Source: Chthoniobacterales bacterium (GTDB lineage Bacteria; Verrucomicrobiota; Verrucomicrobiia; Chthoniobacterales; JACTMZ01). Taken from it: a stretch of 34,186 bases of DNA. Shown piece after piece: positions 2,469 through 22,008 of this stretch. Both the position numbers and the translations under genes were made by a program. The stretch is from the NCBI GenBank assembly GCA_014879535.1, contig JACSRX010000005.1, forward strand, positions 1-34,186. The letters run 5' to 3'. Positions within the stretch are counted from its first letter, which is position 1. The number at the start of each line of letters is the position of its first letter. The notes below the pieces were generated by a model that searched no databases, was not told where the DNA came from, and saw only the letters and a list, made by a program, of their open reading frames with translations.

Positions 2469-5147
2469 TCAGAGCACTTCCTCGAGCACCGCCGCCGCGC
2501 GGCGCGGCGCGCCCGGACGACGGACTCCGGGAACCGCCACGCGGAACGACGCCCGTAGCGGACCCTCCTGCCCGCCGCCCACGGCCACGCGATACTCCCC
2601 GGGCTCGACGACCCAGTTTCCCTCCCGGCTCCACAGCCGCATCTCGCGCGTTCCCACCGTGAAGCGGACGCGGCGGCTCTCGCCGGGCTGCAGGGTCACC
2701 CGCGCGCAGCCGGCCAGCCAATGGACCGGACGGGTGACACTGGCCACCGGGTCGGACAAATACAACTGCGTCACCTCGCCGCCCTCGCGCGCGCCGGTGT
2801 TGGTCACCACGCAGGACACCTCCAGCGCCTCGCCGGTGGAAAGGATGTCCGTCGAAAGCTCCAGGTCCGAATATTCAAACGTCGTGTAGCTGAGTCCGAA
2901 CCCGAACGGCCAGAGCGGCGTGCCGTCCATTTCCACATAGCGTCCGCGATGGGACGGCTTGCGGTCATACGTGAGCGGAAGCTGGCCGACATGGCGGGGA
3001 AACGTCACCGGCAGTTTTCCGCTGGGATTCACCCGCCCCACCAAGACCTCGGCAATCGCCTGACCGCCGAACTCCCCGGGGAACCACGCCTCCAGAACCG
3101 CCGGCACGCGGGCCGCAAGCTCCGACACCGCCAGCGGACGCCCGTTTTGCAAAACCACAATCGTCGGCGTGCCGGTGGCCAGCACCGCGCGCAGAAGTTC
3201 CATCTGACGGCCGGGCAATTCCAGATCGCACCGGTCAATGCCTTCGCCGCTCGTCTTGTCGCTCTCGCCGAGCATCAGGACGGCGACCTCGGACTCCCGC
3301 GCCGCCTCCACCGCGTATTCCATGCCGTTGAGTTTTTCGCCGATGCCGAGGAACACGACCGACCCGCAGCCGCGCTTCTGCCATTCGATGCGCAGCCCGA
3401 TGGTGGCGCCTTCCTTCCAGTCCACGGGAATGGCCAGCGTCGCCGGCGCCCCGTGCGTGCTGTCCCAGGCGTCGATGACCAGGTTGCCGTCCAGCCAGAC
3501 GCGGACGCGGTCGGAGGTGACAAAACCAAACGTGCCCTCGAAGTCCCGGTCGGGCACCACGCACCCGGTCCAACACACCGCAAACCCATCCGCCGGCAAT
3601 TCGGCCGCGGCAAGTGCCAGCGCCCAGTTGAAATCAATGAGCGTGTCGCGCCGCACCACATCCGGCTCGCCCTCGAAATACCCGGACGCAAAATAATGTC
3701 CGAGCAGTCCGAAGTTTCCCGCCGCATCCTGCAACCAGGACTCCGGCATCGCATGCAGGTCGCGGGAATCGATATCCACCCCCCGTTGGTACACGATCTG
3801 GGTGTCGGGAAGCATTTCCGGCAGGCAGTCCAGAACGCTCCGGCACTTCCCGTCGCCACTCCCCGCATAGTCGCCAAAGCGCGGCACATCCGCGCTCGGC
3901 CCCAGCAGGGCCAGTTTCCGGATTCCCGGGTCCAGCGGCAGAAGCCCCTGGTCGTTCTTCAACAATACGATGGACTTCTGCGCGGCCTCCAGGCTCAGCG
4001 CGAGATGCGCGGTGCTCCGGCACACCCGCGCGTTGAGCGACGGGTCCGTCTCCGGATCATCAAAAAGCCCCAGCCGAAACTTCAGCGCCAGCACACGGCC
4101 GACGGCCCGGTCCAGCACCGCCGTGTCCAGATCGCCGTCGCGGCAGGCGCCCACGATCTCGCGCATCCACGTGGCGTGATCAAAGTCGTAAAACTGCACG
4201 TCCACCCCGGCGCGCATGGCCTGACAGATGGCTTCCCGCGCCGTGGCGGCGACATGGTGTTTGTCGAGCAACTGGCGGATCGCGCCGAGATCGCTAATCA
4301 CGATGCCGCCAAAATCCCATTCGCCCCGCAATAGGTCGGTCAGCAACCCCTCATTGCCCGCACACGGAATGCCGTCGATCTCGTGATACGCACACATCGC
4401 CCCGAGTGCCCCGCCGTCCACAAACGCCGGCTCGAACGCCCGCAACATCACCTCGCGCAACTCCCGCTCGCCGTAATGCGCCGGAGCCTGATTCAGTCCA
4501 CCCTGCGGACTCCCGTGCCCCGCGAAATGCTTCGGCTCGGCCACCACGTTGAGCGGTCCCAGATCCCCCTGCATCCCCAACACGCACGTCCGGCCCATCT
4601 CGCCGGCCAGCCAGGGATCCTCGCCAAAGGTCTCCTCGCTGCGCCCCCACCGCGCGTCCCGCGCCAGACACAGCACGGGCGACAGCGCCAGATGCACGCC
4701 CACCGCCCGCATCTCCGCGGCAATCGCCGCCCCGATCCGCCCCACAAGCGGTGCGTCAAACGTCGCCCCCAGCCCGATGCATTGCGGAAAAACCGTGCTG
4801 TCCGGCCGCCCAAATCCATGCAGCGATTCCTCCACCATCAACACCGGAATTCCCAGCCGCGTGTGCTCCCGGAACCAACGCTGCACCTCGTTCGCCGCCC
4901 CCGCGTGCACCGGATACAAATCGTGAATCACCCCGCACCCCCGCTCCCCGATCGCCGCCGCCGCCTTCCCGGGGTCCAAGCGTCCATCCACCGCCATCTG
5001 CGTGTACGTCCGCATCCGATCCATCACGTCCGACCCCATGAACATGTCCAACTGACGCGCCTTTTCCTCCAGCGTCATGAGGGCCAGCAGGTCCGCGACG
5101 CGCTCGGCAACAGGAAGCTCAGGGTCTTGATACAAAGGACGATTCAT
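2469..5147 (-). CDS. Glycoside hydrolase family 3 with inserted PA14 domain
   Basis: A beta-glucosidase/beta-xylosidase-type enzyme of about 892 residues. The N-terminal TIM barrel shows SEETFGEDPWL (170-180), KHFAGHG (206-212) and the nucleophile motif VISDLGAI with Asp286. The second alpha/beta domain follows (KSIVLLKND near 390-400) and contains an inserted PA14 domain at about 478-603 (LLGHYFASGYFEG, FVTSDRVRVWLDG). The likely acid/base is the Glu in SGEGIDRCDLELPG (about 632-645). A fibronectin-III-like domain closes the protein. No signal peptide is visible, so it probably acts in the cytoplasm. ATG 5147 (MNRPLYQDPELPV) is chosen over an upstream TTG because family similarity starts there. 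It is first in an operon with the GH63-like gene and is preceded by a promoter at 5249-5276. Substrate specificity is not decidable from motifs; PA14 insertion is known in GH3 enzymes that act on oligosaccharides. Confidence 0.93.
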   Translation of the reverse strand: MNRPLYQDPELPVAERVADLLALMTLEEKARQLDMFMGSDVMDRMRTYTQMAVDGRLDPGKAAAAIGERGCGVIHDLYPVHAGAANEVQRWFREHTRLGIPVLMVEESLHGFGRPDSTVFPQCIGLGATFDAPLVGRIGAAIAAEMRAVGVHLALSPVLCLARDARWGRSEETFGEDPWLAGEMGRTCVLGMQGDLGPLNVVAEPKHFAGHGSPQGGLNQAPAHYGERELREVMLRAFEPAFVDGGALGAMCAYHEIDGIPCAGNEGLLTDLLRGEWDFGGIVISDLGAIRQLLDKHHVAATAREAICQAMRAGVDVQFYDFDHATWMREIVGACRDGDLDTAVLDRAVGRVLALKFRLGLFDDPETDPSLNARVCRSTAHLALSLEAAQKSIVLLKNDQGLLPLDPGIRKLALLGPSADVPRFGDYAGSGDGKCRSVLDCLPEMLPDTQIVYQRGVDIDSRDLHAMPESWLQDAAGNFGLLGHYFASGYFEGEPDVVRRDTLIDFNWALALAAAELPADGFAVCWTGCVVPDRDFEGTFGFVTSDRVRVWLDGNLVIDAWDSTHGAPATLAIPVDWKEGATIGLRIEWQKRGCGSVVFLGIGEKLNGMEYAVEAARESEVAVLMLGESDKTSGEGIDRCDLELPGRQMELLRAVLATGTPTIVVLQNGRPLAVSELAARVPAVLEAWFPGEFGGQAIAEVLVGRVNPSGKLPVTFPRHVGQLPLTYDRKPSHRGRYVEMDGTPLWPFGFGLSYTTFEYSDLELSTDILSTGEALEVSCVVTNTGAREGGEVTQLYLSDPVASVTRPVHWLAGCARVTLQPGESRRVRFTVGTREMRLWSREGNWVVEPGEYRVAVGGGQEGPLRASFRVAVPGVRRPGAPRRAAAVLEEVL

Positions 5148-5248
5148 AGTTTGGCCGGTGCCCCATGCGCACAACGATCTCTCGGATGACCCCGCCGTTT
5201 CTTCCGACGGATCGAACTCGGGGGACGAAACGCATTCACACTTTCCGA

Positions 5249-5600: not shown

Positions 5601-7904
5601 TTAGGCGCGACGGTTGCGGCGGACGCCGAAGAGCGTCGTGGCCAGGCCGAGACCGATCAGAGCCACCACGGAGGGTTCCGGCACCGCGATCACGGAGAGG
5701 ACACCCGTATTGCTCAGGTCGAACTCGTACCCTGCTGCGGCTCCCGTGCCGGTGATCCAGGATTCCGATCCCGCACCCACTCCGTTCACCGTGGCACCGG
5801 AGAAGAAGATGCTGTCCTGTTTGTCGATCACGTCGAAGACCTGCCAGGAGTCGCCGACTCCGATAGTGTAGCCATCGAGCAGGCTGACCACGATCGTGCT
5901 GCCGAGGTCGAAGGTGAAGCCGGTCTTGCCGCCGGTTTCGTCCCACAGGCTGAGCTTGTCGAACTGAGTGTCGCTCTGGAGGCCGACATACAGGGTGGAT
6001 CCGCTGTTGAACTTCACGCCCTGGATGTTGTTTCCGAAGATCAACTGTCCGGCTTCCTGCACGCCGCCGGTCGGATCGCCGGGGCTGATGAAGGCGCCAT
6101 TGCCCACGGTCACCTGTTGGTTGGCCGCACCCGCCACCGAGGCGCCCACGTTGAACTGCCGGATGCCCTCGTCGCCGAGGCGGCCCACGCCAGAGAGACT
6201 CGAAACATTGATGTCCTGGGTGTATTGGAAGACGCCCCAGTCATTGCCGTCCTTGTCCTGGCGGTAGTTCACGCCGCTGCCGCCAGCCAGAATGAGGCTG
6301 GTGTTGGCATTGAGGATCGCGTTGGTTTCCACACGGAGAGAGCCCTGCACGACAACCGGACCGCTGAGCCCGTCATTACTGCTGTTGCTGTCGAACATCA
6401 CATTTCCGGAAGCGATCACCACCCCGCCACTGCCGCTGAGGCCCGTGCCGATGCGCACGTCGGCGCTGCTATTCTTGCCGGCCCAGATGTAGCCGGTATT
6501 CGCACCGAAGGCGATTGTGCCAGCGGCCCCGGTGAAGTTCGCCCTGGGGTCACCGCCGGTTCTGCCGACATTCATGATGCCGCCGCTCGTCACCGTGAGC
6601 GTGTTTGAGCCAAGAGCAATCGTCGCATCCCCGCTGTTGTTGTAGAAGAGGACCGAGTTCACCGTCTGATTGCCGGTGAGCGAATAGGTCCCGCCGCCGC
6701 TGTACTTGGCATTGGCATCCGAAGCCGCCCCGGAGATGTCCGCGTATTCCGTGGTGAGATTCAGCGCACGGAAACCGCCGGTGCTGTCATAGGTGAGGAA
6801 ACCGCCGGTCGTCGGGTTGTTCCGGACGACAGGCACGTAGGCGCCCTGATCCCGCTGCGAAGTCGCCGCCGCCCAGGGCAGGATGGCGAGGTTCGTGGTT
6901 CCAGGCGTCGTGCTTGTTCCGATCCTGCTGGCAAGGATGCCCGCATCATTGGTCACGTGCATCTCGAAGCCGCCGGTTCCGACCAGCACCGGAACATTGT
7001 CACCGCCGCCCAGCATCAAAGTGCCATTGTTCGAGCGACTGAAATCCGTGAAATGAACGGCCTTCGGTTGGCTATTGTGTCGGTCGATGAAGGCATTCCG
7101 GCCCCCGGTGAGGTTCAGGGAACCGGCCGTCAGCGCGTTGGCCTGAGTGCCGTTTTCGAACCAGATCGAGCCGCCATTCATGTTCAGCGCGGTGGTGCTG
7201 CTGTTGATCGGCGTCGGATTCGTGTCATTACGAATGATCAGAACACCGCCGGAGCCGTTCGCTCCAGAATATCCGAGATTCAGGTTGTCGGGAGCCCAAC
7301 CGGCGGACGCAGCCATTCCGAAAAGCTGCGTGCGGCCTTGCAGGATGGTGAAGTCGCCGCCGCTCAGATTGTTGGCCGTGTGCGTGCGCATTTCCAGATC
7401 GCCCTCGCCGAGCTTGATCAGACTGCCATTCGAAATGCTGCCCCGCATTTGACTAGTGGAGCGCTTGTCCCGGAAGCCAGGCTGAACCGTCAATTCGCGC
7501 GTTCCGCCATTCAGATTGATATTGAGCGGCTGACTGCTGCTGTCATTGCCCAGTTCGATGCCCTTATTGTTGTTGCCGGGGTCGAACGTGAGGTTCCCGT
7601 TGAGCGTGAGCACCGTGGGTGTTCCGAACGTCGAGTTCGGCGTGCGCAAGCGGAAGTTTTGATTGACCGTCGTGATGTTCAGGTCGCCGAGCGTGGTGTG
7701 GTTTCCGGTCAGGTTTACGTCATAAGGATCGCCGCCCCCCGCGAGATTAAATTGATCATTGATCACACCGCCATTCCAGTTGCCGGTGTTGAGGTAATCG
7801 CCTGTGCTGCTGCCGGTCCACTGGGCACTTGCCGAGGGAAGCCATGCAAGGGCGGCTACACTGATCGACGCTAATACGATATGGAGAGGAGGAGGATTTT
7901 TCAT
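5601..7904 (-). CDS. PEP-CTERM-anchored surface protein with autotransporter-type beta-strand repeats
   Basis: A secreted protein of 767 residues. The N-terminus MKNPPPLHIVLASISVAALAWLPSASAQ is a signal peptide. The body is Gly/Asn/Thr-rich beta-helix-like sequence with repeats of the autotransporter-associated type, for example LSGPVVVQGSLRV and TSLILAGGSG. The C-terminus is a classical PEP-CTERM sorting signal: VPEPSVVALIGLG, a hydrophobic stretch, then RRNRRA. In the known system such proteins are processed by exosortase at the inner membrane and exported to the cell surface or extracellular matrix; no exosortase gene is in this window. ATG 7904 is chosen because the signal peptide begins there; an upstream in-frame start would place ten polar residues before it. 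It has its own terminator and is separated by repeats from the genes on both sides. The molecular role is unknown, probably structural or adhesive. Confidence 0.9.
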   Translation of the reverse strand: MKNPPPLHIVLASISVAALAWLPSASAQWTGSSTGDYLNTGNWNGGVINDQFNLAGGGDPYDVNLTGNHTTLGDLNITTVNQNFRLRTPNSTFGTPTVLTLNGNLTFDPGNNNKGIELGNDSSSQPLNINLNGGTRELTVQPGFRDKRSTSQMRGSISNGSLIKLGEGDLEMRTHTANNLSGGDFTILQGRTQLFGMAASAGWAPDNLNLGYSGANGSGGVLIIRNDTNPTPINSSTTALNMNGGSIWFENGTQANALTAGSLNLTGGRNAFIDRHNSQPKAVHFTDFSRSNNGTLMLGGGDNVPVLVGTGGFEMHVTNDAGILASRIGTSTTPGTTNLAILPWAAATSQRDQGAYVPVVRNNPTTGGFLTYDSTGGFRALNLTTEYADISGAASDANAKYSGGGTYSLTGNQTVNSVLFYNNSGDATIALGSNTLTVTSGGIMNVGRTGGDPRANFTGAAGTIAFGANTGYIWAGKNSSADVRIGTGLSGSGGVVIASGNVMFDSNSSNDGLSGPVVVQGSLRVETNAILNANTSLILAGGSGVNYRQDKDGNDWGVFQYTQDINVSSLSGVGRLGDEGIRQFNVGASVAGAANQQVTVGNGAFISPGDPTGGVQEAGQLIFGNNIQGVKFNSGSTLYVGLQSDTQFDKLSLWDETGGKTGFTFDLGSTIVVSLLDGYTIGVGDSWQVFDVIDKQDSIFFSGATVNGVGAGSESWITGTGAAAGYEFDLSNTGVLSVIAVPEPSVVALIGLGLATTLFGVRRNRRA

Positions 7905-7914
7905 AGCAAGGTGG

Positions 7915-7944
7915 AGACTACACAGTTCAATCAATCAGTGTCAA
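7915..7944 (-). promoter_or_regulatory. Possible promoter of the PEP-CTERM gene
   Basis: On the minus strand: TTGACA, an 18-base spacer, then TAGTCT. The -35 is perfect but the -10 is weak and lies only ten bases before the ATG, so the transcript would be leaderless or nearly so. This agrees with the absence of any Shine-Dalgarno sequence before ATG 7904, but a promoter further upstream in the AT-rich stretch to 7990 is also possible. Confidence 0.35.
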
Positions 7945-8491: not shown

Positions 8492-9055
8492 CTACGAAGC
8501 GGGGGCGACGGGCGGGGGGACAGGGACGCGGGTGAGGGCGCCTTTCGCCTTCGGGAGCAGAAAACTCACGGATTGCGGGGGGACCTTGCCGGAAGCGTCG
8601 GGCAGGGCAGGCGGTGCCTGGAACTGGAGCGAGAGCATGCGGGACTTGCCGCCGGGCGCGAGGGTCACAAGCACCTCGGGGTAGGGATAGACGATGTGGG
8701 GCGGCGCCACGGGGGGCAACGCGGGGTATCGACTGCCCGTGGTCTCATCGATCATGGTGGTGGCGGCGATGGAGAACGGTTTGGGGTCGTAGCGCCCGGA
8801 GCGGATGTCATCGGGATTCGCGTTGGGAGGGATGGGGGTCGGCACGCCGACGAAGGTGCCCTTTGGCGCGGCCCCCTTGCCGGCGGCGATCTGAAACAAC
8901 ACAAGAAGGCGGTTCTCCGGAAGGCGTTCGATGCGCACCACTTCGTAGGACACACCGGGCCATTCGGTGGCCACGGCGGGAAGCTCGGGCGTCTGGGCCG
9001 TGAGGGACAAAGGCAGGAGGCCGAGGAGAAGGATCGAACACAGGCGGGCGGTCAT
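8492..9055 (-). CDS. Small secreted protein downstream of cassette protein A
   Basis: A 187-residue protein with signal peptide MTARLCSILLLGLLPLSLTAQ. The mature part is Pro-rich with alternating strands: VSYEVVRIERLPENRLLVLFQI, a Pro-rich linker (VGVPTPIPPNANP), HIVYPYPEVLVTLAPGGKS, and SVSFLLPKAK near the end. No known family is recognised. It begins 36 bases after the stop of cassette protein A on the same strand and is probably the last gene of that operon, so it may be a periplasmic or surface partner of the pilin-like complex. No Shine-Dalgarno sequence is visible before the ATG. Coding composition and the clean signal peptide make it a real gene; the function is unknown. Confidence 0.75.
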   Translation of the reverse strand: MTARLCSILLLGLLPLSLTAQTPELPAVATEWPGVSYEVVRIERLPENRLLVLFQIAAGKGAAPKGTFVGVPTPIPPNANPDDIRSGRYDPKPFSIAATTMIDETTGSRYPALPPVAPPHIVYPYPEVLVTLAPGGKSRMLSLQFQAPPALPDASGKVPPQSVSFLLPKAKGALTRVPVPPPVAPAS

Positions 9056-9091: not shown

Positions 9092-12000
9092 TCAGCGCAG
9101 CTCCTCGGAGGAGAGCACGCGGTAGAGGTAGCGGGGCTGGAAGGGGTGCGCATTGGCATCCATGGGGTCGTCGAAACTGCCCACCCGTCCGTCGGGGCCG
9201 GGGGCGGTGTTGTTGCCGTAGATGCCATCGGTTCCGGGATCGAGGTAGCGTTCCACGACATAGTGGACGCGGACCTCGGATTGCACAAGGTCGCCGGTTT
9301 CGAACGCGCCGTAATCGGTGTTGCGGGGGACTTTTTTCACCGCCTGGCCGACGGCCCAGACGGAGAAGACATTGCTCTGCGTGGTGAGGGCACCGATGGC
9401 GTCGCGCACGAGGTCGTTGCGGGTCGTGTTGGCGGGGGCGCGCAGGGCGGAGACGGCGGAGACGTTGCAAATCTCGCCGGGGATGCGCAGCGGGCCGTTG
9501 GCGCGGATGTGGGTTTCGATGGCGGCCGCGACGGCGTCGGCGTCCACAGTGCTGGTCGCCGGGCCGCTCAGGCGGGCGGTGGTTCCCGTTCCCAGAACCT
9601 GAAGATTGACGCGGAGTCCGCTCAGGACGGCCTGCAAGGGAAGGCGGCGGGAAATGGCGGGGTCCGGAGTGTCCACATCGGTGGTGTAGGCGACGACGCC
9701 ATTCGGGTTGATGCGCCCGGCCGTCGAACCACCAAAGGTGCCGAACTTCGCCAGACGGGCGACGGCGGTCTCCGCGGCGGCGGAGCCGGGGTTCACGGTC
9801 GAGGGATTGTAGGGACTGCCGTAGGGCGCGAGCGTCGAGGGCACGTAGAGCAGGTCCAGCATGGCCCAGTCGGGGTAATTTTGGCCGCCGGCCGTGGCCT
9901 GCGCGGAGTCGCCCGAAGGGGCATAGCTCAAGAGCCGGAACGGGGTGCCGTGCTGGTTCTCGTAGGCGACCAGATCGAGGGTTTTGTCGGGCATGATGCC
10001 GGTGCGGACGTATTGCAGGTAGCCGATGCTGGGGAAGCGGGCGCTGCGGGGAATGACGGTTCGGGTGCGCAGATCGCTCCACCGCGACACCGGGCAGTCC
10101 ATTTGCGGCATCCAGTACGAATCGGGGTCCGGGCCGTAGGCCGACGACGAGGTCGAGAAGGGATTCGTGGCGGATTGGTTGCCCTCAATCATCGTATTGG
10201 CGGCGCCCCCGGTGTTCATACCGGTCGGCGTGGTGGTGCCGGTCTTCCAATCGGCGGGAAATTTGTTCACCAGGGGATCCTCCACCCACGCTGAGGCGGT
10301 GTAGGAACTCCCCAACCCGCCATTGGGCTGGATGGGCACGGTGAGCGACACCGGAATCACGGCCTTGCGCACGCGGTCCTCCACCGTGTCGCCTCCGGTC
10401 CCGTAGTCGGCGGCGTTCTGATAGTCCTCGTAGTTGAGCGAGCTGTTGTGGGTCCAGGACGGACGGGTGGCGGAGGCGCTGTTGCGTCCGCCGCGCCAGG
10501 CTTCGAGGGGTGTGGGGTCGGGGTCGCTGTAATTGCCGAGCTTCATGGCGGCCAGGATCGCGAGGCCGCCCTCGATGTTGAGGGTTCCCCCGCCGTTGGC
10601 CGAGGTGGACATGGGGAGGCGGTTGATGCCGCCGCCCCAGCGATTGTGGGCGACGCGCAGTTTGCCATTGTCCCAATCCACAGAACCCGGGCTGGCCTCC
10701 TGGAATTTCGGCATGAAGAACGGGGTGCCGAAATTCTCCTCCTCGCCTCCGCCCCCCCAGAAGGATCCATAATACCTGCCGCCGGAGTACGTCATGGCGT
10801 CCACCGGCACCTGGTGGGGGTTCAGAAGGGCGGCCCAGTCCTGCCGCTTGTCCTCGATGAGATTGCCGTCGCGGCGGCGCAGGTTGGCCGCGAAGTCGAT
10901 GTGCTGGTTGTTGCGCAGCAGTTGGTTGCCCCAGTAGTTTCCGATGCTGTCCGCCGGCAAAGAGGCCAGCGTGGGGCCGCGTCCCGCTCCGCCGTCCGGG
11001 CTGACGTCCGCGATATTGACCGCGCTGAAATTGCGGCGGGAGAGGGCGATCTCGCCGGCGGAGATCGGGACGTTCTGCGAGCCGCGGAAGTATCCGGCGG
11101 GCAGCCAGTATTCCACCCAGATGTCGAGATCGAGTCCGGGCGGCACATAGCTGGTATTGGCTGCGGAGGGCGCGCCACCAGAGGCCGCCCAGGTGGTGGC
11201 GCGGACAAACAGCCGGGAAACCTTGGGCGAGCGGGCCATGCCGCTGACCCAGTCGCGGCTCAGCCAGCCGGTGTAGATGTAGGGTGCCATGGCGGTGTAG
11301 CGTCCCACATGTTCCTGGTAGCCGGAGGGGTTTTCGTCAAAATTGGAAAACGGATAGTCGTAGCTGATCGCCTTGGAGCCGAGGCTGGCGATCTGGGTGA
11401 CGATGCTGTCCATCTGGCGCGGAGTGTATTTGTCGGCGTATCCCGTCGCCGCAGTCGAGCCCGCAAAGGCCGGCCAGCGGATTGCCTGTCCGGCGGAGTT
11501 TCTTCCGTTGAGGTAGTGCGCCAGCAGGCTGCCGACGGTGTAGGGGTAGTTGTCGGCCCGGTAGAGCCAGTTGCCGTCCCAGGGTCCGCCCCCCTCGCCC
11601 ATCGTATAGACGCCCATCGCGCTGCGGAAGGCCAGCGGCCAGTTCACCCGGAGGTCGTTCGGATTCGAAATCACCGTGGGCGCGCCCGTGGTGTGGTCGC
11701 CGGAGAGATTCACGATCTGCGGCATCTGGTATTGCGGCAACTGCTCGGGCGTCGGATAAATTTCCCGCACCGGGAGCAGAGTGAGGCCGTTGGTGGTCAT
11801 GTCCGTGTCCCACGACCGCCCCAGAATGGGCATCATGGCCACGCGCGGCTGACCGAAGACATTGAGTTCCGGGCTGCGGCTTGCGGCGGTGAGATGGAAC
11901 ACATTGGCCGCGTAGGTGTTGGTGGTGGTTCCGGCCACGCGCAGAATTTCGGCCGGGGAGGCGAACCCCTGTTCGCGCGCGAATTTGACCATGTTCGTCG

Positions 12001-12709
12001 CGGTGCTGGTCGAGACGCCGAGCACGGTGAGCGCGATCTCACCGGGTGCCCCCACCCCGAGACCGTAGCGCTTCGTCGTCGAGGTGAGCGCAACCGAATC
12101 CGGATACTTTGGATCGGTTCCGCTGGCGACGTTGACATTGATCTTCGCGCTCTCGTCGTCGATCCAGAACGCATAGCGCCCGACGATGGAATTGCTGCTC
12201 GAGGCGGCGGCGGTTGGATCGCGCAGCACCTCGACATATTTCACCGAAAGCTCCGGCGCGCTCGCGCCGCCATTGGTCGAGCCGATGATGGGAAAGGTGC
12301 CGTCAAGCAGGCGGCGGTTGAGGTTCACCAGATTCGTGCCGGTCGCATTGGTGGAAAACAGGGGGATTTTGGCGCGCGGATTGGTCGAGGCATAATCCCA
12401 CTGCGTCAGCCGCCCCGGCGAAATTGACCAAAAGAACGTCGGGGGGGTGGTGGCAAAGTTCCGGTAGGGATCGTCCCAGGATTCCGCGCCGGTGCCGAGT
12501 CCCTCGCGCAGCCTGGCCACGGCGGCATCGACGCCCATCACAGCAAGATGACCGGCGCGCTGTTGGTGCAGAACGGACCCCGCCACCTTGGTTTCCAGCG
12601 TGACGCTGGAAAAATAGGCCACGACAATGACCGTGACGAGGACAACAAAAACGAGCGTGATCGTCAGCGCGGAACCCAGACGGCAACGGAGTTTCAGCAG
12701 GGCGTTCAT
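9092..12709 (-). CDS. Verru_Chthon cassette protein A (giant GspK-like pseudopilin)
   Basis: A 1205-residue protein matching in size, N-terminus and gene context the family known as Verru_Chthon cassette protein A. The N-terminus is one transmembrane helix after a short basic leader (LGSALTITLVFVVLVTVIVVAYF, positions 11-33, given here as two joined parts: LGSALTITLVFVV and LVTVIVVAYF), with no Glu at +5. An amphipathic helix LHQQRAGHLAVMGVDAAVARL follows. YAFWIDDESAKINVNVAS (179-196) and FASPAEILRVAG (249-260) closely resemble the conserved segments of the type II secretion minor pseudopilin GspK. The remaining ~900 residues are a large Gly/Asn/Trp-rich extracellular region with no family I can name. 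Its ATG overlaps the stop of protein C (ATGA), so the two are translationally coupled. The function of the family is not established; the GspK reading is mine. Confidence 0.88.
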   Translation of the reverse strand: MNALLKLRCRLGSALTITLVFVVLVTVIVVAYFSSVTLETKVAGSVLHQQRAGHLAVMGVDAAVARLREGLGTGAESWDDPYRNFATTPPTFFWSISPGRLTQWDYASTNPRAKIPLFSTNATGTNLVNLNRRLLDGTFPIIGSTNGGASAPELSVKYVEVLRDPTAAASSSNSIVGRYAFWIDDESAKINVNVASGTDPKYPDSVALTSTTKRYGLGVGAPGEIALTVLGVSTSTATNMVKFAREQGFASPAEILRVAGTTTNTYAANVFHLTAASRSPELNVFGQPRVAMMPILGRSWDTDMTTNGLTLLPVREIYPTPEQLPQYQMPQIVNLSGDHTTGAPTVISNPNDLRVNWPLAFRSAMGVYTMGEGGGPWDGNWLYRADNYPYTVGSLLAHYLNGRNSAGQAIRWPAFAGSTAATGYADKYTPRQMDSIVTQIASLGSKAISYDYPFSNFDENPSGYQEHVGRYTAMAPYIYTGWLSRDWVSGMARSPKVSRLFVRATTWAASGGAPSAANTSYVPPGLDLDIWVEYWLPAGYFRGSQNVPISAGEIALSRRNFSAVNIADVSPDGGAGRGPTLASLPADSIGNYWGNQLLRNNQHIDFAANLRRRDGNLIEDKRQDWAALLNPHQVPVDAMTYSGGRYYGSFWGGGGEEENFGTPFFMPKFQEASPGSVDWDNGKLRVAHNRWGGGINRLPMSTSANGGGTLNIEGGLAILAAMKLGNYSDPDPTPLEAWRGGRNSASATRPSWTHNSSLNYEDYQNAADYGTGGDTVEDRVRKAVIPVSLTVPIQPNGGLGSSYTASAWVEDPLVNKFPADWKTGTTTPTGMNTGGAANTMIEGNQSATNPFSTSSSAYGPDPDSYWMPQMDCPVSRWSDLRTRTVIPRSARFPSIGYLQYVRTGIMPDKTLDLVAYENQHGTPFRLLSYAPSGDSAQATAGGQNYPDWAMLDLLYVPSTLAPYGSPYNPSTVNPGSAAAETAVARLAKFGTFGGSTAGRINPNGVVAYTTDVDTPDPAISRRLPLQAVLSGLRVNLQVLGTGTTARLSGPATSTVDADAVAAAIETHIRANGPLRIPGEICNVSAVSALRAPANTTRNDLVRDAIGALTTQSNVFSVWAVGQAVKKVPRNTDYGAFETGDLVQSEVRVHYVVERYLDPGTDGIYGNNTAPGPDGRVGSFDDPMDANAHPFQPRYLYRVLSSEELR

Positions 12710-13608
12710 TGGGGAGCGTTGGCTTTGGGGGCGACTACCAGGGGAAACACCGTGCTGTAAATCTGCGCACCCTTTTTTATCGGAGCCGGGAGGCTGTTAT
12801 AAAAGGTGTGGATGTCACTCCAAAAGTCGTCGGTCGAAGTTTGCGGACGCTCGGCGGCGGCTCCCGTGAGCTTCTTCGCCGTGCGCGCATCAATCACCAC
12901 AATCGCCACTTCGATGCTTGAGGGCAACGCCCGTTGATAAGTAACGCCCTCGCTGGACCGATACCCCTCGCTCGAATCGAATGCGCCCGCAGGGAAGGCG
13001 GTGCCAGCGGCGTTGGTGCGGATCGTCTCGCCCACCTGGTCGAGCGGGCGCACCCAGAGGCCAAGGACATTCTCGGCGAGTTGTCCGGCGTAATTTCCCG
13101 CCTGGGAAGCCGGCGCGTTGGCATCCAGCACCGCGTCGGTGATCCAGTTCGCCGAGGCATCCGTCGCCGGATAGTTTGGAGCTCCGGGGTTCACCATCAC
13201 CCGGCACAGCTTGGGAATGGCAGGGGCTGTACCCTCGGCCACAGGGCGCACAAAGTAGCCTACCACCGCCTGGTCGCCATTCGTGCGCACCGTTGCCGAA
13301 GGTGCCAGCCAGAAAATGGCCTGGGGCATGACATGGGTGACACCGGGGGGATTGATAACAAAATCCAACCGCCCGCCATTGAAATCCGCGGGCAGGCTCG
13401 CGTTGCGCAGATCGCGGCCCATCTGCGCCAACATCACCATCGCCGCAGTTCGCCGGTCATTGTGCGCAATGCCCTGCTGCCAGATCGCGGAGGTCGAACT
13501 CGCGAAGGACGCCAGAACCACTGCCAGCAGAAAAAAGACCGCCGTCGCCACCAAAAGTTCCAGGATGGTGAATCCCGCAGAGGACTTCGTGCGTGCTCGC
13601 CTATTCAT
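12706..13608 (-). CDS. Verru_Chthon cassette protein C (GspJ-like prepilin)
   Basis: A 300-residue protein with a type IV prepilin N-terminus: a basic leader, then the cleavage/methylation motif GFTILELLVATAVFFLLAVV with Glu at +5, which prepilin peptidase would cut after Gly12. The globular part has GspJ-like features: a long N-terminal helix (SSTSAIWQQGIAHNDRRTA), then beta-rich sequence (RLDFVINPPG, VGYFVRPVAEG, ENVLGLWVRPLD) and SIEVAIVVIDARTAKKL. Gene order and length fit cassette protein C. Its start overlaps the 3' end of B by 8 bases and its stop overlaps the ATG of A, so B, C and A form one translationally coupled unit. The protein would sit in the inner membrane and assemble into a pseudopilus-like structure. 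Confidence 0.87.
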   Translation of the reverse strand: MNRRARTKSSAGFTILELLVATAVFFLLAVVLASFASSTSAIWQQGIAHNDRRTAAMVMLAQMGRDLRNASLPADFNGGRLDFVINPPGVTHVMPQAIFWLAPSATVRTNGDQAVVGYFVRPVAEGTAPAIPKLCRVMVNPGAPNYPATDASANWITDAVLDANAPASQAGNYAGQLAENVLGLWVRPLDQVGETIRTNAAGTAFPAGAFDSSEGYRSSEGVTYQRALPSSIEVAIVVIDARTAKKLTGAAAERPQTSTDDFWSDIHTFYNSLPAPIKKGAQIYSTVFPLVVAPKANAPQ

Positions 13609-14092
13609 AATTGGAAATGGAGAACACCGTCACGTTCGAGGAGGTGAACTGGGGATTCGGCCAGCGGATGTTTAATTGCAGCAAGGCTACGTAATTCAGC
13701 GGATAGTTCGCGTCCGCCGACGGAGTGACATTCGCCACATCACACCGGAAGTAGCCCGCCGCTGCATTGGTCTCCACCCCGGAAAAATCGAAATACATGG
13801 TCGCCGGCAGATTCGAGGCGGCGAGAGCATTCGAAAAACCCATCGATTGATACCGCGCCGCCAGCCGCGAAAAAAGCATCGCCTGTTGCTGGCAGATATC
13901 GGACTCCATCGTCCCCCGCAACGCCAACGTCAACAGCCCGAAAATCGAAACCAGAACAAATCCCGTGATACCAACCGCAACCACCACCTCGACAAGAGAA
14001 AACCCCCATGCCTCCCTCGAAAAAAATGCCCGCCTTCCTACGTCCGCAGGAACAGAACCAAGGACATCAGAGTGGGCACCGGGCGCTTTCAT
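13601..14092 (-). CDS. Verru_Chthon cassette protein B (GspI-like prepilin)
   Basis: A 163-residue protein. After a long leader of about 29 residues comes the prepilin motif GFSLVEVVVAVGITGFVLVS with Glu at +5 and a hydrophobic helix. The short globular part ends NIRWPNPQFTSSNVTVFSISNYE, reminiscent of the beta-sheet C-terminus of GspI. The leader is unusually long for a class III signal, but no other start lies closer, and ATG 14092 is the first in the frame after the AT-rich promoter region. It is the first gene of the minus-strand B-C-A unit. Length and order fit cassette protein B. Confidence 0.85.
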   Translation of the reverse strand: MKAPGAHSDVLGSVPADVGRRAFFSREAWGFSLVEVVVAVGITGFVLVSIFGLLTLALRGTMESDICQQQAMLFSRLAARYQSMGFSNALAASNLPATMYFDFSGVETNAAAGYFRCDVANVTPSADANYPLNYVALLQLNIRWPNPQFTSSNVTVFSISNYE

Positions 14093-14108
14093 CGTGAGAA
14101 GTGGGAAA

Positions 14109-14136
14109 AATCTATAAAGTTTTTTTACAATGTAAA
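14109..14136 (-). promoter_or_regulatory. Candidate promoter of the B-C-A unit with overlapping palindrome
   Basis: In the very AT-rich divergent gap between B and D (14093-14208), the minus strand reads TTTACA, 16 bases, TAGATT, a fair sigma-70 match. The -35 is part of a perfect 13-base palindrome, TTTACA-A-TGTAAA (14124-14136), which could be an operator controlling both directions. On the plus strand, TTGTGT (near 14144) with TTATTT 17 bases on is a weak candidate for D. The composition contrast with the flanking GC-rich genes is marked. Confidence 0.4.
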
Positions 14137-14208
14137 GACGAAATTGTGTTTTTTATATTGATTGTGTTATTTTTGTTTATATTGTCTTTCTCGAAACCTT
14201 CCTCCACG

Positions 14209-14868
14209 ATGAAACCCGCCATGAATTCTTCTTGTTCCCGGCAGTGCTATCATGCGGCGTTTTCTCTGGTTGAACTGCTTGCCACAGTGGCAGTCCTTTC
14301 ACTTCTTGCGACACTGGTCATTCCTTCGCTGGGCGGCACCAACAGCAACAAGATCACGAGCGGCGGCAATCAACTGGCGGAAACCCTCACCCTCGCGAGG
14401 CAAAATTCCCTTTCGCGCCGGACCTACACATCGCTGGTGGTGAAGGTGACCGGAGAAGGTGCGCGATCCGCCTACTGCCTCGTGGAATATGCCCGGGCGG
14501 ACGACGGTACATTCACGGCCGCGACGCCTCTGACGCCCTGGCGGCGGCTTCCGACCGGGATCTATTTCATGAACGCCGCGTCCAACAATTTCCTCGCCGC
14601 CGCCACCAGCCCGGTGGACGCGCCGCTCTCCGATCTCGTTTATCAGGGCCAGGCCCTTGATCCGGCCAACGACCTGATTGCGCAGACCTTTCAGCCCGAC
14701 GGCTTGCTGACGACCGGGCAGCTTCTGCGCCTGCGCGTAGCGGAAGGGGTGATCGACGGTTCCGGGACCGTAACGATGAAAAACCCAGGCTCTGACGATC
14801 AGCCGAAAAACTATTACGACATCGTCGTGTTGCGCGACACGGGGCTGACCAAGATCGAACGTTTGTAG
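14209..14868 (+). CDS. Verru_Chthon cassette protein D (GspH-like prepilin)
   Basis: A 219-residue prepilin-like protein. After a leader of about 16 residues comes FSLVELLATVAVLSLLATLV, with Glu at +5 of the prepilin motif; the residue before Phe is Ala rather than the usual Gly. A GspH-like continuation follows: QLAETLTLARQNSLSRRTY, the typical long helix after the N-terminal segment, then SLVVKVTG and a beta-rich domain ending YYDIVVLRDTGLTKIERL. ATG 14209 (MKPAMNSS) is chosen over the track-extending upstream ATG at 14101 because that would add a second hydrophobic segment and cover the promoter region; ATG 14221 is an alternative. D is transcribed away from B-C-A. It converges with the GntR/LacI gene 34 bases downstream, with no terminator visible between them. 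Confidence 0.85.
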   Translation: MKPAMNSSCSRQCYHAAFSLVELLATVAVLSLLATLVIPSLGGTNSNKITSGGNQLAETLTLARQNSLSRRTYTSLVVKVTGEGARSAYCLVEYARADDGTFTAATPLTPWRRLPTGIYFMNAASNNFLAAATSPVDAPLSDLVYQGQALDPANDLIAQTFQPDGLLTTGQLLRLRVAEGVIDGSGTVTMKNPGSDDQPKNYYDIVVLRDTGLTKIERL

Positions 14869-14902: not shown

Positions 14903-16192
14903 TCAGGATGTCTTGCGCTTCGAAACGTCACGGGGCAGTTTGGCGATGGGGAACGTCATCGGTGCGGACGCCGCGTCTCTGGGAAACGCCGATGGACGCA
15001 CCACGAGTTCCGGCATTACGACGCGTCGTTCGCCCTTGGCGAAGAGCTTTCCCTCGATGCGCTCAGCCAGCAAGTCCAGCAGATTCGCTCCGATCTCAAG
15101 ATTTCGCTTGTCGACGGTGGCGACCGGCCCGAGCGGCTCCCACTCCCGGACTTCCAAGTCATCCCACATATTGTCATAGCCGGCCAGGAGGACATCGTCA
15201 TTCACCTTGCGGCCATGCACGCGCAAAGCGGCGGAAAGATGGCCGATCATGCCATCACTCGGTGCTATGATCGCGTCCACTGGCTCGTTCCCCAGAAGGT
15301 GTTCGATCAAATAGCCGGCCATGATGCGGGCCCGGAACTCAAAATTCTCCTTTGTATTTCCAAAGTTGTGGTAACCGGGATCATACACCTCAAGAGCCGG
15401 TAGCGGTTCGAGACCGGCATCCTTCATGGCCCGCTCGTATCCGCGATCACGCTGGAGGAGCCAAAGTTCCTTCTCTTGAGGCCCGCGCATGTGCAGCTGC
15501 CAAAACCGAAGAATGCGGCGGCGCCCCTGTTTGATCAACCACTGTGTGAGCGCATAAGCACCCGCTTCGTGATCCGATACGACGGAATCCACTCCCTGCA
15601 GTGCACTCACCCCTGCTGCCAAACCCAAGTCTCCGTAAATCACAAAGGGCACGTTCCCCTCGTGCAATGCTTTTCCGATCCGCTGGCCTGATTCTTGCTG
15701 GAGCACCCGCGACAGCACAATCACCCCCCGCGGACGCTGCGCAATGATGCGTTGAATCATATCTCCTGCCACCCTGTCCGGATGGATGGTATACGCGTCA
15801 AAACCGGCGTTGCGAATCGCAGCCACCGCACCGGTATGCACAAAATCGATGTGCCAAGTGTGATGAATGTGATTGGAGTATTCCGCTTGGTCGGGCGGCT
15901 CCATGATCAGGGCAACCGCGTCGGACAGAAACCCCCGGGATGGCTTGACGTTCTCCCTGACGATCCAGCGCCTGCGATCCGATTGGATGATCTCTTGGCC
16001 AGCCAGATCAGAGAGTGCCAGACGGATCGTGGTGCGGGACACCTTGAGCTTGTTCGCCAACTGTAACTCCGAAGGAAGGCGCGAGCCGGCGGAAAGACGG
16101 CCATCCATGACCCATTCCAGTAAATGCCGAACGGTTCGTGCGCGTGGACTGTTGTCCACAATCCCCAAGGTGTTGGAGTTATCAAGTGCCAT
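14903..16192 (-). CDS. GntR-type DNA-binding / LacI-type sugar-sensing transcriptional regulator
   Basis: A 429-residue regulator of the AraR-like architecture. A GntR winged helix-turn-helix lies at about 15-77, with AGSRLPSELQLANKLKVSRT and TIRLALSDLAGQEII. A LacI/periplasmic-binding-protein-type effector domain runs from about 90 to 420, with RPRGVIVLSRVL, VDSVVSDHEAGAYALTQWL, VDAIIAPSDGMIGHLSAAL and DVLLAGYDNMWDD. Such proteins are usually repressors released by a sugar. It diverges from the LamG-lipoprotein-SBP-permease operon, with 173 bases between the starts, so it probably controls that operon and itself. The ligand is unknown. The start ATG 16192 gives the normal N-terminus of this family. 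No Shine-Dalgarno sequence is visible. Confidence 0.92.
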   Translation of the reverse strand: MALDNSNTLGIVDNSPRARTVRHLLEWVMDGRLSAGSRLPSELQLANKLKVSRTTIRLALSDLAGQEIIQSDRRRWIVRENVKPSRGFLSDAVALIMEPPDQAEYSNHIHHTWHIDFVHTGAVAAIRNAGFDAYTIHPDRVAGDMIQRIIAQRPRGVIVLSRVLQQESGQRIGKALHEGNVPFVIYGDLGLAAGVSALQGVDSVVSDHEAGAYALTQWLIKQGRRRILRFWQLHMRGPQEKELWLLQRDRGYERAMKDAGLEPLPALEVYDPGYHNFGNTKENFEFRARIMAGYLIEHLLGNEPVDAIIAPSDGMIGHLSAALRVHGRKVNDDVLLAGYDNMWDDLEVREWEPLGPVATVDKRNLEIGANLLDLLAERIEGKLFAKGERRVVMPELVVRPSAFPRDAASAPMTFPIAKLPRDVSKRKTS

Positions 16193-18338: not shown

Positions 18339-20020
18339 AAGCCGTTTTCTCCGCCCTTTCCTCCCGCCTCCCGTGGATCGTCATCGGGCTGTTGTTCCTC
18401 TGGGCGGCGGCGGCGGTCGCCCGGCGGCACGGCCAAAAAGAAGCCGACGGCGGGATCGTGATTCGTCTCGCCCACTGGCAGCTTGAAGCCGGCGTGCGCG
18501 AGGGCTTCGCGGAAGCCGCCGCCGCCTATGCGAAGCTGCACCCCCATGTGCGCATCGTCCAGGAGGCCATCCCGGAGAGCACGTATGGCCAATGGCTGAG
18601 CACCCAGCTCATGGGCGGCACCGCCCCCGACATCATCGAAGCCGGCATGGTCGAGCCGCCGCTCATGACCGCCTTTTACAATCGCTACCTCCTGCCGATC
18701 TCGCCCTACATCACGCAGCCCAATCCCTACAACGCCGGCACACCGCTCGCAAATGTCCCGCTCCACCGCACGTTCAAGGACGGTCTCATCCGCTCCTTCG
18801 TGCCCGAGGTCCAGGAGTTCATGGTCCTCCCCCTCGCCATGTCGAGCCTCCGGCTCTACTACAACCGCTCCCTGCTCCACCAACTCACCGGACTGGAGGA
18901 GCCGCCCACGGAATTCCGGGCCTTCATGAAGATGGTGGACACCATCCAGTCCCAAAATACGCCCCACGGCGAACCCTACCGCGCCTTCACCGGATCGAAA
19001 TTTCACTTCGTGCGCATGGAGGACGCCATGGCCAAACCGCTGACCTATGGCGCCCTGCGCAAGATCGACTTCAACCGCGACGGGCGCTTCAGCATCGACG
19101 AAATGTTCCTGGGCTTCGCCACCGAAAAAATCGGCTTCGACGATCCCGCCTACCGCGCCTTCTTCCGAATGGTCGGGGAACTCACCCGCGTGCTGCCCCC
19201 CGGCTGGGCCGGTCTCGCGCGCGACGAAGCCCTTTTTCAATTCGCCCAGCAGCGAGCCGTCTTCACCGCCGCCGGCATCTACGAGGCCGCCGGCATCCAG
19301 GACCAGGCCCGCGGCAAATTCGAGCTCGGCGTGATGGATTTTCCCGTGCCCCTCCCCACCGACCCGGAGTTCGGTGCCGTTCTCGAAGGTCCGCGCTACG
19401 AAAAGCCCGACGGCAACATGCCCATGGCGATCACACGGACCTCCAAGCATCCCGAGATCGCCGCCGACTTCCTGCTCTTCCTGACCAGCCTCCGTCAGAA
19501 CGAAATCTTCAACGCCCGCCTGAAGTGGATTCCCATCATCACCGGCGCGCGGGGCGATCCGTCCGTCCGGGTCTTCGAGCCCAACCTCCGGGGCGTCTTC
19601 CCGGCCTTCGATCCCAACATCTTCGGCAACACCTTCATCAAGTGGAACCAGCTCTACACCCTCCACCAGATCGGCCAGCTTTCCTACGAGGACCTCGCCC
19701 ATCAGTTCACGGCCTACTACACCACCCAGGGACGCGAGGATTTTCGCGAGTTCCTGCGCAACCGCCGCCGCGCGCAGTTGCAGGACGAACAACTCCTCGT
19801 GGGCCTCCGCCAATCCGCCCGCGCCCAAACCGGAACCGCCTCGGACTGGATCAAATACCGCACCATCGTCGCCACGCGTCAGGCCGACGGCGACAAGACC
19901 CTCCTCCAACAGAACCGCGTCTTCACCGAACCCGAAGCCCTGGCGCGGGAAACCTTCTATCAATACAGCCCCGCCGCGCTGGAAAACATCGCCCGTCAGG
20001 CCGCTCCGTCCACGCCATGA
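18335..20020 (+). CDS. ABC transporter extracellular solute-binding protein (family 1) with EF-hand loop
   Basis: A 561-residue sugar-type solute-binding protein, longer than the usual ~420. An N-terminal hydrophobic segment (LPWIVIGLLFLWAAAAVA, 12-29) acts as a signal peptide or membrane anchor; there is no lipobox Cys. The family fold begins at IVIRLAHWQ, with GTAPDIIEAGMVEPP (95-109), LPLAMSSLRLYYNRSLLHQL (165-184), FNARLKWIPIITG and PEIAADFLLFLTSL. Residues 245-256, DFNRDGRFSIDE, form a complete EF-hand calcium loop inside the binding domain. A C-terminal extension of about 100 residues is helical and Arg/Gln-rich. It overlaps the lipoprotein gene upstream and the permease gene downstream by ATGA, so it is clearly the binding protein of the fused permease. 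It probably delivers an oligosaccharide. Confidence 0.9.
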   Translation: MKAVFSALSSRLPWIVIGLLFLWAAAAVARRHGQKEADGGIVIRLAHWQLEAGVREGFAEAAAAYAKLHPHVRIVQEAIPESTYGQWLSTQLMGGTAPDIIEAGMVEPPLMTAFYNRYLLPISPYITQPNPYNAGTPLANVPLHRTFKDGLIRSFVPEVQEFMVLPLAMSSLRLYYNRSLLHQLTGLEEPPTEFRAFMKMVDTIQSQNTPHGEPYRAFTGSKFHFVRMEDAMAKPLTYGALRKIDFNRDGRFSIDEMFLGFATEKIGFDDPAYRAFFRMVGELTRVLPPGWAGLARDEALFQFAQQRAVFTAAGIYEAAGIQDQARGKFELGVMDFPVPLPTDPEFGAVLEGPRYEKPDGNMPMAITRTSKHPEIAADFLLFLTSLRQNEIFNARLKWIPIITGARGDPSVRVFEPNLRGVFPAFDPNIFGNTFIKWNQLYTLHQIGQLSYEDLAHQFTAYYTTQGREDFREFLRNRRRAQLQDEQLLVGLRQSARAQTGTASDWIKYRTIVATRQADGDKTLLQQNRVFTEPEALARETFYQYSPAALENIARQAAPSTP

Positions 20021-22008
20021 GCGCAAAAAAAGTCCGCTGGAACCAGGTCCGGCACCATTGGGAAATCTATCTCTTCATCCTGCCGGTGATCGCGCTCGTC
20101 GCGCTTTTCCAGTATTATCCGGCGGCCAGCGGCATCTTCCACAGCTTCTACCGGTGGAACGGCGCGGATGTCTCGGAATGGGTCGGCTTCAAAAACTACA
20201 CCGACCTCCTCGGCTCGCCGGAGTTCTGGCAATCGTTCCGCGTCGCCTTCCTGCTGGGTGTCTGGAACGTCGTGAAGATGCTTCCCGCCATCGCGGTGGC
20301 CGTGTGGATTCACCGCTGCCGCAGCGAGCGCATGCAGTTTCTCTACCGCCTGCTCTTCGTCGTGCCGATGGTCGTGCCCATGCTGGTCGTCGCGCTCATT
20401 TGGCGCACCTTCTTCTTCGAGGCGACCCAGGGGTATCTGAATTGGTTCCTCGACCACAGCGGCCTCTTCCCCCTGCTGTGTCGGCTCGACCAATGGCTGC
20501 ACTGGGGCGGTATTTTCGTCGAAGGAACGCGTCCCGCCTGGCTGGGCGACCCCCGCCTCATTCTCGTGGCCTGCGTCGTCTGGGGCTTCCCGTGGGTCGG
20601 ATCCTTCGCCGTGCTCACGCACCTCGCGAAACTGCAAAACATCCCCCGGGAAATCTACGAGGCGGCGGACATCGACGGCGCGGGCTGGTGGACGAAATTC
20701 ACCCGCATCGAGGCGCCGCTCATCATGAGTTCCATCCACCTGATGCTCGTCTTCGTGATCATCGGCACCATCAAGGACGCCGGCATGATCATCGCGCTCA
20801 CCGGCGGCATGGAGGGCGGCCCGGGCGGCCTCGCCACCGTGCCCGCCCTCTTCATGCTGCGCAAGGCCTTCGTCAACCAGGAAATGGGTGCCGCCTGCGC
20901 CGTCGGCATCGTGCTGACCCTCGTGGTCATGGCCCTTCAGAAACTCAGCACCCTGCTTCTCGACGACACCCAGGGCGTCGGATGGCTGAGACGCGCCGCC
21001 CGCCCCGCCGGGCTGCTTCTCGGTGTCCTGCTGTGGTTCTTCGCCCCGGGCTGGGGCACCATCGCGGTGTTCCTCCTGCTGGCCGCCTTCCCCTATGGCG
21101 CGGTGTTGGCACTGGCGCGCCGCCTGGTCCCCGCGCGGGACGCCGCGCCGCACCGCCCGCGGTCTCCCATCCCCCCCGCCCTCGCGCGCCTGGGTTCCGG
21201 CTTCCTGCGGTGCGCCAAGCACGCGGGCATCTTGGGCGTGCTCCTGATCGCGTTTTTGCCTGTGATCCTCATGCTCATCGTGAGCCTGAAAACCAACCAG
21301 CAGTTCTACGAAGCGCCCGGTCGGCTCACCCCGCCCTTCCAGTGGAACAACTGGTCCGACGCCTGGAGCCTCATCGCCCCCAGCGTCGCCAACAGCCTCA
21401 CCGTCTGCACCCTCAGCACCGCCCTCACCCTCGCGCTCGCGCTCGGAGGTTCGTATTTCTTCGCCCGCCTGCGGGTGCCGCTCTCCGGCTTCCTTTGGAA
21501 CGCGCTGCTCGTCCTGTTGATGATGCCTACCGTCGCAAACCTGGTGCCGCTCTTCCGCCTGCTGGGCGACCTCAACCTGCTCAACACCCTGTCCGCCCTC
21601 ATCCTCGTCGGCGCGTCCGCCGGGCAGGTCTTTGCCATCTTCGTGCTGCGCAACTTCGTCGCCGAAATTCCCTTCGACCTTTTCGAGGCCGCCGAGATCG
21701 ACGGTGCCAACCATTTCCAGCAAATGGCCACCATCGTGCTGCCCCTGTGCGGCCCCATCCTCGGCACGGTCGGCGTGATGCATTTCATCACCGAGTGGAA
21801 CGAATTCGTCCTGCCCCTCATCGTCATTCGCGACGCGGACCTGCTGCCCGTCATGGTCCAGCTTCAGCGGCTGGCGGGCGAATACATCAAATTCTTCGGC
21901 CCCCTCATGGCGGGCTACGCGCTGGCCAGCCTGCCCATCATCGTGCTCTTTCTCTTCTCGATGCGCCTGTTCACACGCGGCCTCACCGAGGGCGGCACGA
22001 AGGGATAA
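20017..22008 (+). CDS. Fused ABC sugar transporter permease (MalF-like + MalG-like in one chain)
   Basis: A 663-residue inner-membrane protein that joins the two permeases normally encoded separately in CUT1 sugar transporters. The N-terminal half (about 15-312) has the MalF-type start WEIYLFILPVIALVALFQYY and the EAA loop EIYEAADIDGAGWWTKFTRI (213-232). The C-terminal half (about 403-660) has the MalG-type start and a second EAA loop DLFEAAEIDGANHFQQMATI (554-573). Each EAA loop contacts an ATPase subunit. Two further hydrophobic segments (about 331-347 and 349-368) and a Pro/Arg linker join the halves. No ATPase gene is in the window, so a shared MsmK/UgpC-type ATPase is likely. Its start overlaps the SBP stop (ATGA). 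I see no frameshift; the fusion appears genuine. Confidence 0.93.
   Translation: MSAKKVRWNQVRHHWEIYLFILPVIALVALFQYYPAASGIFHSFYRWNGADVSEWVGFKNYTDLLGSPEFWQSFRVAFLLGVWNVVKMLPAIAVAVWIHRCRSERMQFLYRLLFVVPMVVPMLVVALIWRTFFFEATQGYLNWFLDHSGLFPLLCRLDQWLHWGGIFVEGTRPAWLGDPRLILVACVVWGFPWVGSFAVLTHLAKLQNIPREIYEAADIDGAGWWTKFTRIEAPLIMSSIHLMLVFVIIGTIKDAGMIIALTGGMEGGPGGLATVPALFMLRKAFVNQEMGAACAVGIVLTLVVMALQKLSTLLLDDTQGVGWLRRAARPAGLLLGVLLWFFAPGWGTIAVFLLLAAFPYGAVLALARRLVPARDAAPHRPRSPIPPALARLGSGFLRCAKHAGILGVLLIAFLPVILMLIVSLKTNQQFYEAPGRLTPPFQWNNWSDAWSLIAPSVANSLTVCTLSTALTLALALGGSYFFARLRVPLSGFLWNALLVLLMMPTVANLVPLFRLLGDLNLLNTLSALILVGASAGQVFAIFVLRNFVAEIPFDLFEAAEIDGANHFQQMATIVLPLCGPILGTVGVMHFITEWNEFVLPLIVIRDADLLPVMVQLQRLAGEYIKFFGPLMAGYALASLPIIVLFLFSMRLFTRGLTEGGTKG

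Follow-up and report, generated by a model that had tools for sequence, protein, structure and literature searches.

A Verru_Chthon gene cassette from a Chthoniobacterales bacterium resembles a GspH-I-J-K minor-pseudopilin set with a predicted split GspK

Introduction

The tip of the type II secretion system (T2SS) pseudopilus is formed by the minor pseudopilins GspH, GspI, GspJ, and GspK (structures 3ci0 and 6utu), the first three of which carry Glu5 while GspK does not. The way in which the T2SS recognizes cargo has long been an open question, with GspK at the tip as a proposed contact point (PMC7541494). Among related machines, Myxococcus xanthus has three clusters of minor pilins and PilY1 (clusters 1 to 3) that share one assembly machine, and tips for different substrates have been proposed for them (PMC7541494). 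Modular pilins, e.g., PilB of Streptococcus sanguinis, bear a large functional module on the pilin, where it is expected to lie at the tip (PMC8179133).

Four bacterial protein families named Verru_Chthon A to D are found clustered, with a family A protein of 1,000 to 1,500 aa and prepilin-type N termini in B, C, and D. Our literature search found no paper naming Verru_Chthon or TIGR02600, the model of the A family. Here, we analyze a Verru_Chthon locus that shares these features and compare it with the T2SS tip, the M. xanthus clusters, and the modular pilins.

Results

Cassette layout and family assignment

The window, i.e., the entire 34,186-nucleotide stretch analyzed, is a complete contig of a 3.17-Mb genome assembly (97 contigs, 96% complete). 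It contains a genuine cassette of four contiguous open reading frames, A to D, at positions 9092 to 14868, where the sequence-only reading had placed them. Three are on the minus strand, namely, those for protein A (9092 to 12709; 1,205 aa), protein C (12706 to 13608; 300 aa), and protein B (13601 to 14092; 163 aa), with overlaps of 8 bases between B and C and 4 bases between C and A. The overlapping B-C-A arrangement in the I-J-K order is therefore as originally described, but protein D is encoded divergently on the plus strand (14101 to 14868), whereas in the D-B-C-A relatives inspected it shares the strand of the other three genes. The start codon of D is probably an ATG at 14209 or 14221 rather than the listed GTG at 14101.

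For each of the four proteins, the best NCBIfam match was to a Verru_Chthon family, with E-values between 2e-38 and 1e-6 and every score under its curated cutoff: A matched TIGR02600 (E = 2.1e-38; 132 bits against a cutoff of 332), C matched TIGR02599 (E = 4.5e-13), B matched TIGR02598 (E = 5.6e-11), and D matched TIGR02596 (E = 1.3e-6). We take the family signal in these sequences to be real but remote. The gene order also differs from that of the copies in which A scores above the TIGR02600 cutoff, which read A-B-C-D or B-C-A-D.

The prepilin N termini claimed for B, C, and D, each with Glu at position +5, can be read directly in the sequences (...REAWG/FSLVEVV, ...KSSAG/FTILELL, and ...CYHAA/FSLVELL, respectively, the slash marking the cut), D having Ala instead of Gly before the cut. 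The head of A, CRLG/SALTITLV, is without Glu5, as had been noted, and both segments reported for this protein, YAFWIDDESAKINVNVAS and FASPAEILRVAG, are present in it.

Predicted fold of protein A

The AF2 model of A (1,194 aa) has a mean pLDDT of 59.8 and a pTM of 0.66, with more than 500 residues below pLDDT 50. It consists of a helix (residues 2 to 60), strands (residues 81 to 174), and closing strands at the extreme C terminus (residues 1103 to 1193). When superposed at full length on solved GspK chains with VIA-align, the model gave Z-scores of 15 to 16 over 220 to 254 residues at 2.4 to 3.1 Å, i.e., 15.8 for GspK 3ci0_K (244 of 280 residues, 2.9 Å), 15.3 for XcpX 6utu_C (220 of 261 residues, 2.4 Å), and 15.1 for 9a1f_T. 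These superpositions extended up to residue 1193 or 1194 of the model, and the first unrelated row after the GspK chains had a Z-score of 7.5. The high values come from VIA-align realignment of candidates supplied by Foldseek, which itself returned nothing at E = 0.001 and ranked GspK at E = 3.4. A search of PDB sequences with the A profile gave no match, and no Pfam family covers the protein beyond chance. Against the GspK model NF037980, A scored 21 bits for a cutoff of 130; the genome's own T2SS GspK, with 81 bits, is also below it. On the basis of a model with a mean pLDDT of 60, A is predicted to have the GspK fold, that is, a pilin domain with an inserted alpha-domain.

Profile comparison by hhalign of 30 A sequences with 16 verrucomicrobial GspK sequences (numbering refers to the mature protein) located the likeness at the two ends of the protein. 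Residues 1 to 63 aligned with GspK with a probability of 96.6 and an E-value of 4.7e-10, in agreement with the proposed GspK-type helix. With the helix removed, residues 860 to 1194 were collinear with the GspK alpha-domain plus the last strands (probability, 74.6; E = 2.7e-5). The score of this C-terminal comparison was 30.4 with one alternative alignment and 41.9 with three, both above all 60 shuffles, for which the maximum was 24.6. Residues 300 to 860 gave no GspK signal, and for residues 70 to 300 without the helix the profile signal was not significant, being reached by 3 of 60 shuffles. The GspK likeness initially ascribed to the N-terminal part of A is hence upheld by the fold of the full-length model and by the profile of residues 1 to 63, but not by the profile of residues 70 to 300.

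Four segments can be drawn in A from these data, all on the minus strand. The N-terminal half of the GspK-like core (mature residues 1 to 190; positions 12107 to 12676) comprises the pilin helix, the strands, and the motif GRYAFWIDDESAKINVN, and residues R167, W171, and E175 are invariant in the 30 relatives. It is followed by a helix-hairpin-helix-like unit (residues 175 to 264; positions 11885 to 12154) that contains FASPAEILRVAG and superposes on the ComEA-related structure 2duy with a Z-score of 7.5 over 60 residues (VIA-align); its likeness to GspK is not significant by profile alone. Then comes the variable insert (residues 276 to 990; positions 9707 to 11851), which is partly beta-rich, and finally the C-terminal region predicted to close the GspK-like fold (residues 860 to 1194; positions 9095 to 10099), which overlaps the drawn end of the insert.

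Since the middle of A is without a match while both ends match GspK, the approximately 700 extra residues would constitute an insert within a split fold. By model and profile, A thus appears to be a GspK fold split internally and not a GspK to which a domain was added afterwards. This revises the initial description of about 900 extra residues following a GspK part: the last ~330 residues match GspK again, and the extra segment is internal. Taken as the residues lying between two conserved elements of A, GxPRI and GRIN, the insert ranges from 385 to 962 residues in 29 relatives, with a length coefficient of variation of 0.21, compared to 0.09 for the N-terminal flank and 0.17 for the C-terminal flank. 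Folded separately with AF2, it gave a poor model (pLDDT 36) from which no fold is claimed. An internal duplication in A (residues 165 to 300 versus 960 to 1160) was also considered and was not supported, 5 of 60 shuffles reaching the score.

Companion proteins and gene order

The likening of D, B, and C to GspH, GspI, and GspJ fared unequally. The C family matched GspJ over 183 columns (E = 1.5e-12), compared to 48 columns for GspI, and retained an E-value of 0.0012 against GspJ without the N-terminal helix; C, accordingly annotated as a GspJ-like minor pseudopilin, appears closest to GspJ. The B family matched GspI with an E-value of 1.1e-9 (GspJ, 3.5e-8) and of 0.015 without the helix, and its resemblance to GspI looks weak at this level. 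For D, a candidate GspH-like minor pseudopilin, the likeness consists of a match to the GspH model TIGR01708 with an E-value of 0.003 over the N-terminal part only.

D-B-C-A is the order in many relatives of the cassette, and three prepilins lie upstream of A in 27 independently fetched loci. A second cassette in the same genome is preceded by a GspG-like pilin, giving G-D-B-C-A, i.e., the gsp order G-H-I-J-K. Taken together, a GspH-I-J-K reading of D-B-C-A is supported in predicted fold, gene order, and sequence, and it matches the T2SS tip in the distribution of Glu5 (present in H, I, and J and absent from K). The relatives retrieved by sequence are mostly from Verrucomicrobia, many of them labeled Chthoniobacterales or Spartobacteria. 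At L152, L158, L161, and further loci, at least one extra GspG/H-like pilin was seen upstream of D.

We also recognized a small protein of 187 aa with a signal-peptide-like start, E, encoded on the minus strand 36 bases after A (8492 to 9055). It has no NCBIfam or Pfam match, and a protein that can be aligned with it is encoded immediately after A in five related loci. E, which is newly seen here, would by these alignments be a fifth gene of the cassette, coding for a small secreted protein after A in the closest relatives.

Cassette copies and core machines

Neither an ATPase, a platform protein, a secretin, nor a major pseudopilin is encoded in the 34-kb contig, as the sequence-only reading had observed for the locus. 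The genome has one separate T2SS-like cluster with pilins, a canonical GspK, a secretin, and an ATPase, located on another contig (C6), and in addition to the cassette under study it contains the second full cassette and an orphan A. The tally is thus two cassettes plus an orphan A to one canonical GspK, along with four T2SSE-type ATPases at E = 1e-60; two adjacent secretin genes (contig C61) and tandem ATPase genes (contig C62) were also found.

Across 42 genomes, A had 0 to 40 matches, the ATPases 0 to 7, and canonical GspK 0 to 3; these genomes were partly chosen for carrying A, such that the ranges are informative but the averages are no census, and split matches of A are counted twice. 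Distinct frames were therefore counted for two genomes. G323 (3 contigs) had 22 A-like frames, of which 16 carry the WxDDES motif, along with 5 assembly ATPases and 1 canonical GspK; in G078 (single contig), the numbers were 11 (8 with the motif), 3, and 1, respectively. Cassette copies hence far outnumber T2SS cores in some relatives, which, together with the absence of a core from the cassette, fits the use of a borrowed core with swapped tips. None of the 42 genomes had A without an assembly ATPase, and a correlation of the A count was seen with the number of ATPases (rho = 0.49) but not with that of canonical GspK. In 10 of the 42, A was present and canonical GspK absent at E = 1e-10, implying that in these genomes A might serve as the ordinary tip and not as an extra one.

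Other large proteins came to light in these searches. The orphan A paralogue of the genome (L109, contig C89; 6430 to 9888, plus strand) is ~1,150 aa long, begins with a signal-peptide-like stretch instead of the pilin helix, and is without pilin neighbors. An oversized pilin of 855 aa with a prepilin head (L022, contig C54; 11012 to 13579, minus strand) adjoins a secretin gene. Another kind of protein, of 1,000 to 1,500 aa and with the same GspK-like N-terminal helix, was found at L059 to L065 and L075 to L078; it is without WxDDES, and B, C, and D were not detected nearby.

Carbohydrate-use genes around the cassettes

Next to D, the window encodes a GntR-type regulator with a LacI-type sugar-binding domain (14903 to 16192, minus strand; Pfam GntR, E = 1.8e-13; Peripla_BP_3, E = 3.9e-11). 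Beyond E are genes for a secreted protein with a PEP-CTERM sorting motif (5601 to 7934, minus strand; PF07589 above its cutoff, TIGR02595) and for a glycoside hydrolase of family 3 with PA14 (2469 to 5174, minus strand; Pfam), and the window also has GH63/trehalase-like and GH4 genes. A frame with an ABC-transporter permease domain and blurred gene boundaries (18592 to 22008, plus strand) is probably a transporter belonging to the same carbohydrate locus.

Twenty cassette copies were compared with 20 control stretches from the same three genomes, with gene calls based on a simple codon score. Regulators of the LacI or GntR type were present in 12 of the 20 cassette stretches and in 1 of the 20 controls (P = 0.0004), bearing in mind that copies of one genome are not independent and that some of the members had been cut to 800 residues. 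Among the neighbors of the cassettes (97 proteins from 19 cassettes), the leading families were sugar regulators, carbohydrate-binding modules, cellulase, carbohydrate esterase, GH38, GH130, GH28, and alginate lyase, whereas the 25 most frequent families of the control set included no glycoside hydrolase, carbohydrate-binding, or LacI/GntR family. Many cassette copies in these three genomes are therefore surrounded by carbohydrate-use loci, an association that is newly seen here. In the set of loci closest to the A of the window, such a regulator was found in 4 of 46, indicating that the link is not universal.

Discussion

The cassette departs from each of the systems that it resembles. Relative to the T2SS tip, A is about four times the length of GspK through its insert, and the cassette is set apart from the core and exists in many copies. 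M. xanthus likewise has several minor-pilin sets on one machine, but there are three clusters there, compared to up to about 16 to 22 A genes here, and the bulky component, PilY1, is a protein of its own instead of an insert within the pilin; the shared core is, in our case, something that we infer. In PilB-type modular pilins, the module comes after a small pilin, to which a loop connects it, while here it would split the GspK-type fold.

We consider it reasonably probable that D, B, C, and A are a dedicated minor-pseudopilin set with a split GspK, which would serve as an exchangeable, locus-specific tip on a shared core. According to this proposal, D, B, C, and A would assemble, as H-, I-, J-, and K-like components, respectively, into a pseudopilus-priming tip, to be used on a core (ATPase, platform, secretin, and major pseudopilin) encoded elsewhere, probably the T2SS. 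The extreme tip would be occupied by A, whose exposed insert would engage either enzymes to be secreted or polysaccharide; depending on the sugar signal, one core could carry different tips. With cassette copies exceeding cores and sugar regulators and polysaccharide-degrading enzymes frequently nearby, a locus-specific tip is the most likely use. We infer the assembly of the four proteins, the shared core, and recognition by the insert from copy number, neighborhood, and the precedents set by M. xanthus (PMC7541494) and the modular pilins (PMC8179133); exposure of the insert, control by the neighboring regulator, and a role in carbohydrate use are likewise put forward as plausible parts of the proposal.

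PilX is a small pilin that is not known to have a GspK-type alpha-domain. This bears on a less probable explanation, to which we give only a modest chance, that the structure primed by the cassette is a type IV pilus with A as an adhesive tip, either as a modular pilin or in a PilX/PilY1-like role, holding the cell on polysaccharide. Such a pilus would be in keeping with the adjacent secretin pair and the tandem ATPases found besides the T2SS-like cluster, with the absence of Glu5 from PilX as from GspK and the single pilus machine serving three minor-pilin/PilY1 clusters in M. xanthus (PMC7541494), and with the widespread occurrence of modular pilins with binding modules (PMC8179133). However, the match of A to GspK takes in the alpha-domain and the closing strands of the latter, and one of the genome's own cassettes follows the gsp order with a GspG-like pilin at its head.

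That A is simply the GspK of this lineage, each cassette being part of an ordinary T2SS with no swapping of tips, would explain the 10 genomes with A and no canonical GspK at the cutoff, but the genome studied and most relatives have both proteins, the genome's own canonical GspK lies in a T2SS-like operon, and A copies reach 16 to 22 alongside 5 ATPases, making this improbable. Least probable of all, to the point of being hard to credit, is that the pilin-headed proteins no longer polymerize and that A is an inner-membrane-anchored periplasmic protein for carbohydrate capture or sensing. The signal-peptide-like start of the orphan A does imply that the body of A can exist without a pilin head; against this, the pilin helix of A and three companion prepilins are kept across the phylum.

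The exchangeable-tip proposal may be carried a step further, to a repertoire of sugar-regulated tips in Verrucomicrobia, each with its own recognition insert in a split GspK and all working on one or a few cores, which would amount to a modular system of specificity in polysaccharide use with a role comparable to that of the SusC/D pairs in Bacteroidetes; we offer this extension tentatively, as conceivable but doubtful. Under this reading of the cassette, four protein families so far known by name only acquire a function that can be tested. A phylum with multiplied tip sets, a variable GspK insert, and frequent carbohydrate-use loci around them would provide natural variants for matching tip and cargo.
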